Source: Agathobacter sp.
GTDB taxonomy: Bacteria > Bacillota > Clostridia > Lachnospirales > Lachnospiraceae
DNA: 64,000 nucleotides
Reading direction: 5' to 3'
Assembly (NCBI GenBank): GCA_022769125.1
Contig: JALEKN010000029.1
Span: 1 to 64,000 of the forward strand
Shown here: piece by piece, positions 36,610 through 50,667 of the stretch
Numbering within the stretch: the first letter of the stretch is position 1
Layout of the letters: the number at the start of each line of letters is the position of its first letter
The notes under the pieces: model-generated
Database searches by the model: none
What the model saw: the letters and a program-made list of their open reading frames with translations, nothing else
Told to the model about the DNA's origin: nothing
Made by a program: the position numbers and the translations under genes

Positions 36610-38799
36610 CTATACCTGGAATGTTCCAAGAATCTCAACCAATCGGTCAGAACGGCTCTGCAGTCTTGTAGCTGCCTCCTCAAGATCTTTGGTTACGTTA
36701 AGCTGGGTTCCTGCCGTATCATGTACAGAGGACGAGCATGCCGCGGTCTCCGCAGAAACAGTGGAAATGCTCTCGATTGCCTGCAGAGTCTCGTTGCGGG
36801 ATGTATTCATTTCCTCCACAGTGCTGCTGATCGTTCCGAGTGCCTGCAGCAGGGAAGCAACCTGCTGATTGATCAGCTTGAAGGAATCCGAGGTATCCTC
36901 AACTGCACCTGTCTGGGATGCAACGATGTTCTTCGCCTGTCTTGCAATGTCTGCAACTTCCTTTGTCTTGCCTGCGATCTCCGTAACAATCGTAGAGATC
37001 TTGCCTGCCGAAGTCTGGCATTGATCGGATAGCTTACGGATTTCCTCCGCTACAACGGAGAATCCTCTTCCCGCCTCGCCAGCTCTTGCCGCCTCGATAG
37101 ACGCATTCAAAGATAGCAGATTTGTCTGTTCTGCAATATCGTTGATTTCTTTGATGATCTTGTTGATGGTATTTGATTTCTCTTCAAGTTCTTCGATCGC
37201 GTCAATCACATTCTGCGTGATCGCAGTTGTGGAGTTCGCACTCTCTGTCAGTTCCTGAACAGCTGACATTCCCTGCGTGATTGTTTCCCCTGCGGATGCA
37301 GAGAGCTTTCCGATCTCATCCGCGTTGACGCTCACATCGCTGATCTTGCCTGAAAGTGAATCCATCTGGTTCAGGCAATCCTCAGAGCCCGTATCAAGCT
37401 TATTCACACCAACTTCCAATTCGGATACCACATTCTGGATATCACTGGATGTCTCCATAAAGGTTCCTGAAACCTGATTTACATAGGAAGCAGCCTCATT
37501 GAGCTGTCCGCTTACTTCGTTTACATGTACGATCAATTCCTTAACGTGGTCAACCGTCTCATTGACACCGTCACACAGCAAACCAAATTCGTCCTTGCGC
37601 TTTCCCGTCAGATGAACCGTAAGATTTCCCTTGGAAACCTTGCGCAGCTGCCGGAGAATATATTGGATCGTTCCTGACATGCTACGTGCGATCACGGTGC
37701 CGAGGAGCATTGCGATCAGTGCTACAACAACGGAAAGAATAATGGAAATCTTTTTAATGAATGCCGTCTGTGCCAGAAGAGTAGCTTCCGGAACCAAAGT
37801 GCACACCATAATATTTCCAAAGTCAAGCTTACTGTAAACAAACTGATATAAGGTGCCGTTAATCGTGACTTCATCGCTTCCGCTGTTCTCGACTGATTCC
37901 AGCGCTGCGGCATAAACGTCTGTTCCATATACAAGCGGCGTATCAAAGGCAAGATCCGCATTGGAATAGAATTCTTCTCCGTCAGCGGTAACCATGACCA
38001 CATATCCACCCTCACCCGGATCAATAGACTGCATTGCATCCCTGACAAATCCGGAATCCAGATTGATAATCATGATTGCTTTAAGATTATTGCTCAGTTT
38101 CTTTACAAGGCGGAGCGCATAGCTGCCTGTATCCATGCCTACTGCCTCATCCGTTTCACTGCTCACGCCAAAGTAATGCCACTCATGCTCATCATCAATT
38201 ACGGTTTTTCCCTGTTCCGTTGCAATATAGTTCGAATACGCATCCGCATCCATCTTGGTCGAGTTACTCTTTATTGTCTTTCCTTCGTCAGCTAAGAAGA
38301 AAACAGAACGAAGCCTTGAATCCAGCGTGATCTTATTCTGGATGTCTCTTGTGTAACTTACGTTCGTTGTCACATCCTTGTTCGGATCAGCAGCTTTGCT
38401 GAAATATGCATTCAGTGAATCATCTATCAGATATGACTTGAAATCGGATTTCTCGCTGTTTACAGCAAGATTCATATAAAGCTCAAGCATATTGGTACTC
38501 TGCTGGGTAGATTCCTTGTAGCTTTGCACAATCGCATTGGACGCAACTTTATAAGAAACCGTTCCGAGAACAACAATACCGATGACCGGGACTAAAAATG
38601 CGGTGATCAGCCGGAACTGGATGCTCCGGAAAAATTTAACCTCTTTTTTCTCCGTCTTTTCCTGCTTCTGCGGCTTCTCCTTTTTCGAAAGCTTTTCCTT
38701 CTTTGGAGCCTTCTCCTTCTTCGGCATCTTTTCCTTTTTCAACAATGGTTCTCTCTTCTGTGTCTTTTCTGCTTTTAGTTCTTTGCCCCTCTTCGCCAT
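36610..38799 (-). CDS. Methyl-accepting chemotaxis protein with Lys/Glu repeat head
   Basis: 729 residues. The cytoplasmic head (about 1-55) consists of six-residue KKEK-type repeats ([24 protein letters not shown]). Then come a membrane segment (about 65-85), a large extracytoplasmic dCache-like sensing domain (about 90-350), a second membrane segment (about 355-375), HAMP and the methyl-accepting coiled coil. The signalling tip reads [20 protein letters not shown] then [14 protein letters not shown]. It starts 18 bp after the alpha-amylase stop with GGGGG in front, so it is likely co-transcribed with that gene. A starch- or sugar-related ligand is possible. Confidence 0.92.
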
Positions 38800-49737: not shown

Positions 49738-49870
49738 GGCATGTCAATCACCATCCCATCCCGCGCCGCACCCTCTCTCTTACCGGGAAAGCAATCCCAC
49801 AAAAATTGCAGAAATTCTTTCAACCATTCCCACGGTGATAAGGTTATGTCTTTTATTGGCTTTGACACTC
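49738..49870. repeat. Dispersed repeat, copy 1
   Basis: The core 49788-49870 aligns without gaps to 57932-58014, with about 10 mismatches in 83 positions by eye, eight of them transitions. Weaker similarity extends left to a CATG-CAATC motif near 49740. On the minus strand one shared frame would read SVKANxRHNxIT then VERISxIF, but in this copy it hits a stop soon after. It lies between tRNA-Tyr and the tandem array. Confidence 0.7.
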
Positions 49871-49925
49871 TTGCCCGAATGGCAGGAAGATGGAACAATT
49901 ATCCATCGTCGGAAAGCCACAAAAA

Positions 49926-50174
49926 GTGATGGCTAAGTGGGGAAATGTGCAATAGCCATCACATGAAAATCGCAAAAGGTGATGGCTAAGCAGGAAAATG
50001 TACAATAGCCATCACATGAAAATCGCACAAGGTGATGGCTAAGCGGGAAAATGTGCAATAGCCATCACACAAAAGACACAAAGAGTAATGGCTAAGCGGA
50101 AGAATGTGCAATAGCCATCACATAAGCTTCGTAAAGTGTGATGGGTAGGTAAGAATTTGTGTATTAACCATTAC
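49926..50174. repeat. Five-unit tandem array of hairpin-forming 53-bp repeats
   Basis: Units start at 49926, 49979, 50032, 50085 and 50138, exactly 53 bp apart. Each has 10-bp inverted arms, GTGATGGCTA and TAGCCATCAC, around a 17-nt centre (AGCGGGAAAATGTGCAA-like), then a 16-bp linker. Arms are perfect in units 1-3, carry one A/C change in unit 4 and are clearly diverged in unit 5, so the array decays left to right. Linkers of the first two units are nearly identical. There are no coding ORFs through it. Confidence 0.9.
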
Positions 50175-50415
50175 CAGAGCGCCATAATGCGTGGTAGGCT
50201 GACGAAAAAATAAACACTCCCAATCCTAGGAATGCCGTAAAGAACAGTGGAAAATGGGAAAATCGGAATTTCACGATTTTATGTGGTTCTTTTAACGTGG
50301 GTCAGGGCGCGCGGGACGGGCAGGGAGATTTCTGCTGCGATTTACGTTATGAATGTCCGAGAAAATGAGTATATGAAGTTATACAGATTCAATGGAATTA
50401 TATTGGGATAAAGTA
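50175..50415. other. Non-coding spacer downstream of the tandem array
   Basis: No convincing gene. A stretch around 50252-50300 (GAATTTCAC then GTGGTTCTTTT) weakly resembles 58106-58140 to the right of repeat copy 2, hinting that the two spacers derive from a longer shared element. Confidence 0.35.
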
Positions 50416-50444
50416 AAAAAGACAGCTTCGAACGCTGTCTTTTT
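50416..50444. terminator. Terminator downstream of ftsH
   Basis: AAAAAGACAGC/GCTGTCTTTTT with a 7-nt loop, symmetric enough to act in both directions. It lies about 220 bp after the ftsH stop. The intervening 50445-50667 is AT-rich with no well-supported gene. Confidence 0.8.
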
Positions 50445-50667
50445 AGGAGAAGGTATTTTTACTATGGGGTATAGCAAAAACTATATAATGTATTGGGGGG
50501 TTTTTACGGTTATTATAATAGCATGGACGTATCGAAAAGTGTGCACAAAGTTCACAAAAATTATAGGTGTATCTTGTACAGAATGTACAGTACCTTTTTC
50601 CCATTTTCAGAAGCTTCTGCAAAAACATGCACAAAAGATGCCCCCATATTTGTATCGATATTTGAAA

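Follow-up and report, generated by a model that had tools for sequence, protein, structure and literature searches.

The stretch of DNA analysed here (the window, 64,000 nucleotides of contig JALEKN010000029.1 from Agathobacter sp.) carries a tandem array at 49926-50174, in the interval between tRNA-Tyr and ftsH. The array is made of five units, each exactly 53 bp long, and every unit comprises a pair of inverted 10-bp arms (GTGATGGCTA / TAGCCATCAC), a 17-nt centre and a 16-nt linker. Tandem Repeats Finder reported a period of 53 over 49920-50123 (matches 86%, no indels, score 296), and arms with no more than one mismatch start at 49926, 49953, 49979, 50006, 50032, 50059, 50085, 50112, 50138 and 50165, so that arm-to-arm spacing alternates 27/26 at every step. 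The two methods together confirm the array as it was first described from the letters of the window. The exact degenerate arm pair occurs four times in the window and not at all in 100 mononucleotide-shuffled copies, and all nine exact half-sites of the 64 kb are located within the array. Identity to unit 1 falls steadily over units 1–5 (53, 48, 44, 41 and 31 of 53 positions), which bears out the left-to-right decay noted earlier. Beyond the five units, the array extends rightwards to about 50271 (by eye) and leftwards into a conserved module that begins at about 49869. Its parts are as follows.

49869..49925, plus strand: left module, with hairpin-forming TCTTGCCCGAATGGCAGGAAG, then ATGGAACAATTATCCATCG and the first linker (from the own-genome DNA search, the genus search and flank comparison)
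49926..49978, plus strand: unit 1, consisting of arm, 17-nt centre, arm and 16-nt linker
49979..50031, plus strand: unit 2
50032..50084, plus strand: unit 3
50085..50137, plus strand: unit 4, whose left arm GTAATGGCTA gives an A-C mispair with its partner arm
50138..50190, plus strand: unit 5, diverged, 31/53 identical to unit 1
50191..50243, plus strand: decayed sixth unit, with a linker part AGGAATGCCGTAAAG like the C42 linkers (from sequence and the C42 flank match; boundaries by eye)
50244..50271, plus strand: right end, a degenerate half-unit that ends GGAAAATGGGAAAATCGGAATT, like the right ends of other arrays (from flank comparison; boundaries by eye)

A coding repeat was ruled out by eye, given that both arms produce in-frame stop codons and that 53 is not a multiple of 3. 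Elsewhere in the window, a tandem repeat of period 18/36 was seen at 38655-38740. Downstream of ftsH, the minus strand at 50415-50530 looks like a small RNA, with a TATAAT-like box, a terminator-like end and highly conserved C-rich segments (CCCCCCAATACAT, ACCCCATA, ATACCTTCTCC) that could be read as anti-Shine-Dalgarno-like. Matches to this candidate were found in 64 of 80 ftsH loci (E up to 0.001), and 22 sequences, that of the window included, were aligned. Three copies are present in L047, and two stretches of the same-genus genome G015 (L178, L183) also match. The candidate had no Rfam match at gathering score, and a narrow literature search returned no match.

When the array DNA was used as query against the genome from which it comes (2.75 Mb in 68 contigs, 92.9% complete), further arrays were recovered on other contigs. 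There are 14 arrays in this genome, of 3–7 units each, with 73 units in all (one weaker). The arm-pair pattern, allowing two mismatches, matched 72 times genome-wide, compared to zero for a reversed-pattern control. All 72 matches fall inside arrays (65 in the 13 arrays first read and seven in C63, a fourteenth array found later through a sequence-only model of the unit), and no isolated arm pair was detected outside arrays in the genome at this threshold. The original prediction had also offered a recombination product next to tRNA-Tyr as an explanation. As stated, this is unsupported, because 13 sister arrays lie elsewhere; ARAGORN found two tRNAs in the loci of those 13, each more than 1 kb from the array, with L011, L014 and L020 covering <1 kb on one side of theirs. 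The adjacency of the window array to tRNA-Tyr is incidental.

Throughout the 13 arrays first read, successive arms point in opposite directions and lie 27/26 bp apart, with three departures (25, 25 and 19 bp), and the arms of C63 have the same 27/26 spacing. From one unit to the next, the step is 53 bp in 57 of 59 cases and 52 bp in the remaining two, a count that is biased upward because units were gathered by near-53 spacing and the script imposed 53 on the six steps of C63, in agreement with its arm positions. At 10.5–10.6 bp per turn, 26.5 bp amounts to 2.5 helical turns and 53 bp to five; this is arithmetic rather than a measurement, and shared descent could account for part of the constant period. 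Between arrays, identity is 0.86 and 0.88 for the two arms, 0.51 for the loop and 0.43 for the linker. Within arrays, it is 70% for loops and 62% for linkers, and hence the linkers, earlier called conserved, are only moderately so. Across the 73 units, neither arm varies at positions 2 and 5, and at each of positions 4, 6, 7 and 9 at least 72 of the units agree. Positions 3 and 8 are occupied almost exclusively by R and Y, respectively, in both arms when these are read in the same sense. Read as duplex DNA, the two arms spell a single degenerate site, GTRATGGYTR. The loop centre has a conserved A-tract.

To orient the arrays, we took as forward the strand with the consensus-like loop. By this measure, 11 of the 12 assessable arrays lie in sense orientation to the right-hand gene, the exception being the window array, which is antisense to ftsH. 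The count omits C1 (at a contig end) and C63 (ambiguous, 24.0 versus 20.7 bits), and the orientation of C67 was assigned by loop resemblance, as BLAST matches this array on both strands. A purine-rich stretch followed by ATG lies within ∼65 bp of the last arm in five of the 14 arrays (C27, C33, C54a, C54b and C63; by eye). Among the neighbouring genes are those for acetyltransferases, a methyltransferase, a MazG fragment, a lysine-decarboxylase-like (LOG-type) protein and CarD. The right-hand genes of C54a, C33 and C54b have no Pfam family match, and those of C25a and C2 were called from reading frames alone.

The original prediction raised the possibility of a multi-hairpin RNA, and the array strand, considered as RNA, does fold strongly (z −6.6), as do nine single units (−6.2 to −17.4 kcal/mol). 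A good fold of the strand, however, is what an inverted repeat would give anyway. We thus turned to arm covariation among the units of the genome itself, a check proposed together with that prediction. Pairs were counted over the 66 units then known, and an alignment of 64 of these (A4) omits the first unit of C33, which has a short linker, and the edge unit of C54b; both are in the pair count, and the seven units of C63 are in neither set. At position 3, the count is 39 G-C, 18 A-C, 6 G-U, 2 A-U and 1 other; at position 8, it is 33 C-G, 15 C-A, 8 U-A, 7 U-G and 3 other. Both sets of counts match those obtained by shuffling within arrays. Watson-Crick pairs at position 8 lean towards pairing when units are shuffled across arrays, with 0.064 of shuffles reaching the observed value, compared to 0.71 within arrays. 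In A4, shuffles reached the covariation score in 121 of 500 trials and the percentage paired in 154 of 500, and the covariation term of the consensus fold is 0. When one arm was slid against the other as a control, the true register paired 93% of cells versus 20–61%, as arm complementarity predicts, yet its covariation score (0.094) was smaller than that at slide −3 (0.103). The inner arm positions 2, 4–7 and 9 together contain a single G-U in A4. One compensated change was seen, at position 4 in the edge unit of C54b, where G-C replaces A-U (1 of 66 units; shuffle frequency 0.014).

Overall, the arms show no covariation: A-C mispairs outnumber G-U pairs and shuffles equal the data, with the one unit of C54b as the exception to the trend. 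A+-C wobble could soften the argument from mispairs, although it would leave the near-absence of wobble at the other inner arm positions unexplained. Given that both arms carry the same letters and the same degeneracy, recognition as a site in duplex DNA is the simplest explanation, and an RNA-hairpin role appears less likely than DNA sites. We therefore consider it unlikely that the units act as a transcribed multi-hairpin RNA, folding in an mRNA leader or trailer and there protecting, attenuating or exposing the message. The stable folding, the predominance of sense orientation, the nearby start codons at five arrays and the one compensated unit are all consistent with such a role. Against it stand the overall lack of covariation and the two variable pairs, which are more often mispaired than wobbled. 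Moreover, near-invariant arm letters demand sequence recognition, which a mere stem would not need, and loop and linker lengths barely vary, though an RNA would tolerate variation.

We also compared the sequences that flank the arrays. Five of the 14 (the window array, C42, C54a, C26b and C25a) are directly preceded by related copies of a left module that includes a short hairpin; the module follows the array in C26a, lies 0.6 kb to the right of C27 and was unrecognised at the other seven. The module also occurs alone, without arrays, in the same-genus genomes G034 and G079 (L141 1501-1563, L142 337-399 and L145 5488-5546), and it appears to constitute an independent, dispersed hairpin repeat. 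At the other side, eight arrays (the window array, C42, C54a, C33, C26a, C27, C26b and C25a) share a similar right end, judged by eye, which is a degenerate half-unit like ..AAATGGAAAAATYGGAANTT. By eye, a similar AAATYGGAATT recurs at several of the array ends, always in direct orientation.

The genome has 24 matches to the acetyltransferase family PF00583, and four of the 14 arrays have one within 1 kb, compared to 0.26 expected under simplified random placement; four were reached in 0.00005 of 20,000 draws. This enrichment is to be taken lightly, because the family was chosen post hoc and the placement ignores contig ends. Six of the 24 matches fall at 30–61 kb of a single contig that also has two arrays (G000:C25). 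At C27, a DUF1648 protein is encoded by a reading frame that extends into the array and ends inside it (L013 4875-5476), which suggests that an array may, in this case at least, have entered a gene; C27 itself, an acetyltransferase gene and a left module follow one another in a row.

These flanks bear on a second explanation, namely that the arms are transposase or recombinase sites and the array constitutes the functional part of a non-autonomous mobile element, moved in trans and perhaps carrying single genes as cargo. The left module and right end common to several arrays point in this direction, as do the occurrence of the left module alone in two relatives, the acetyltransferase genes, the DUF1648 frame that ends inside an array and the arrangement at C27. 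However, array ends showed neither terminal inverted repeats nor target duplications and no empty site was found at base level, the acetyltransferase test was picked post hoc, and the genome's single match to a Y1 transposase has no arm at ≤1 mismatch in the surrounding 3.3 kb (five single arms appear there at two mismatches). We regard this explanation as doubtful.

We then extended the search to other genomes, with one genome per species. The arm pair, at up to two mismatches, was found in none of 61 other same-genus genomes, and the reversed-pattern control gave one match each in five of the 61, which is the level of chance. The unit model gave one isolated weak match each in six of the 61 (E 0.005 to 0.042). 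At up to one mismatch, the arm pair was absent from 391 other genomes drawn evenly from the order, a few of them from the same genus, and the array DNA matched none of 59 other relatives. A stricter exact pattern had no match in GTDB genome contigs, where records of the own genome may be left out, and none was found in IMG/VR viral contigs, plasmids or phages. Among the genomes searched, the repeat family thus appears in one species only. Judged by FtsH, the close relatives that carry a name include Agathobacter and Roseburia along with other Lachnospiraceae. L047, which heads the list at 81%, shares the tRNA-Tyr/ftsH interval but has no array in it; the alignment there is too diverged to yield an empty site at base level. 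In sampled relatives, no synteny of array-flanking genes was found. The family is undescribed among the literature matches listed, the search having been a narrow one that cannot establish it as unpublished.

No array of this architecture but with different letters in its arms was found in 635 kb of loci from other genomes, the 80 ftsH loci included, or in two relatives (400 kb each, 800 kb) and three smaller stretches; the scan recovered nine of 13 own arrays with 9-letter arms and 10 of 12 tested with 8-letter arms, such that some arrays could be missed. Other tandem repeats came to light along the way. A hairpin-like repeat (period 37, 8.4 copies, CTCAACGGGAAAAACGCGAAGCATTTTTCCGAGTCTG) lies upstream of ftsH in a different genome (L064 2531-2846), a repeat of period 49 and three copies is positioned just before tRNA-Tyr in a Lachnospiraceae genome from goat colon (L080 7460-7610), and the same-genus genome G015 contains one of period 73 and 3.5 copies (L177 18-271), whose architecture differs from that of the 53-bp repeat.

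That the family is a passive relic, old repeats that are alike by recent descent alone and functionless now, is very unlikely: occurrence in a single species among the genomes searched, the rightward decay of the window copy and the reading frame that ends within one array would all fit, yet neutral decay would not hold arms at 86–88% while loops drop to 51%.

The explanation we favour, with about even confidence, is a dispersed modular element of the BOX/BIME kind that has arrays of putative duplex-DNA half-sites as its core. Among the possibilities raised by the original prediction, an array of protein-binding sites is the one that best accommodates the fixed letters, the fixed spacing, the degeneracy shared by both arms and the lack of overall covariation. 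The core is a tandem array of inverted pairs of the 10-bp site, alternating in direction at 27 bp across the loop and 26 bp across the linker (∼2.5 turns) and repeating at 53 bp (∼5 turns). A DNA-binding protein, probably dimeric or cooperative, would recognize these sites, and its binding, rather than RNA pairing, would preserve arms and spacing while loops drift. Because arrays are mostly in sense orientation ahead of a gene, their occupancy probably affects transcription of that adjacent downstream gene. Unit number is probably altered by slippage or unequal exchange, and the shared ends and scattered positions suggest mobility. The window array itself may be dead, given its antisense orientation to ftsH and the decay at one of its ends.

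A more specific version is speculative, and we think it improbable. Here, the family would be a helically phased operator array that has spread in one species before single genes, probably acquired ones, where the putative protein would bind many sites cooperatively and bridge or silence the arrays, making this a repeat-borne regulon and not a selfish hairpin. If true, scattered genes (acetyltransferases and the like) would be under one control.

Bacterial interspersed repeats with inverted arms are usually taken as RNA hairpins or as substrates of a transposase. In this family, the sequence evidence sets site recognition apart from pairing, in that letters are near-fixed and the helical spacing is fixed, with no overall compensation. 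It predicts a sequence-specific binder of duplex DNA with ∼146 half-sites (73 units) at 14 loci of one Lachnospiraceae-type genome, and it offers a case where a dispersed repeat may bring regulation to the genes beside it.

How does the family compare with known systems? At gathering score, Rfam recognized only tRNA in the window, and array matches in a permissive search were far below cut-offs. The regular period is reminiscent of CRISPR, which had been discounted at the outset and which we likewise reject: the intervening sequences, loops as well as linkers, are related within arrays (loops 70%), and no cas family was found in the 19 neighbour proteins scanned. MIRU repeats of mycobacteria are dispersed tandem repeats of ∼50 bp that lie between genes and are oriented with them. 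The present family resembles them as a dispersed tandem repeat of about that size, in an unrelated host, and MIRUs are not known to contain an inverted site pair.

BOX elements of Streptococcus pneumoniae are small dispersed repeats in which tandem middle units, variable in number, stand between a left and a right module; they are predicted to fold and likely affect genes co-transcribed with them, and the authors consider such repeats likely to be parasitic rather than host-serving (PMC3049150). Our family is similarly small, dispersed and predicted to fold, with a plan of left module, tandem units and right end at some of its loci. It differs in its 53-bp unit with a near-invariant inverted 10-bp site at fixed spacing, in lacking overall arm covariation and visible terminal inverted repeats, in its number (14 copies) and in that the left module adjoins arrays on the left at only five of 14 loci.

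REP sequences and BIMEs are characterized as regularly spaced alternating elements, tandemly repeated and mostly outside genes, and IHF and gyrase are among the proteins that BIMEs are reported to bind (PMC2817692, PMC3733652). Regular alternating spacing is found here as well, both in C63 and, with the three departures, in the other 13 arrays. In contrast to REP/BIME, the 10-bp element is itself no palindrome and bears no GTAG or CGTC tag. A palindromic unit with complementary changes was not seen, the single compensated unit excepted, nor was a RAYT flanked by repeats, the genome having one Y1_Tnp match. The family is accordingly not filed with either group, because these REP/BIME features are lacking and the BOX plan is seen with a left module in position at only five of 14 loci. 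In plan, its closest counterpart is BOX; in alternation, it is BIME.
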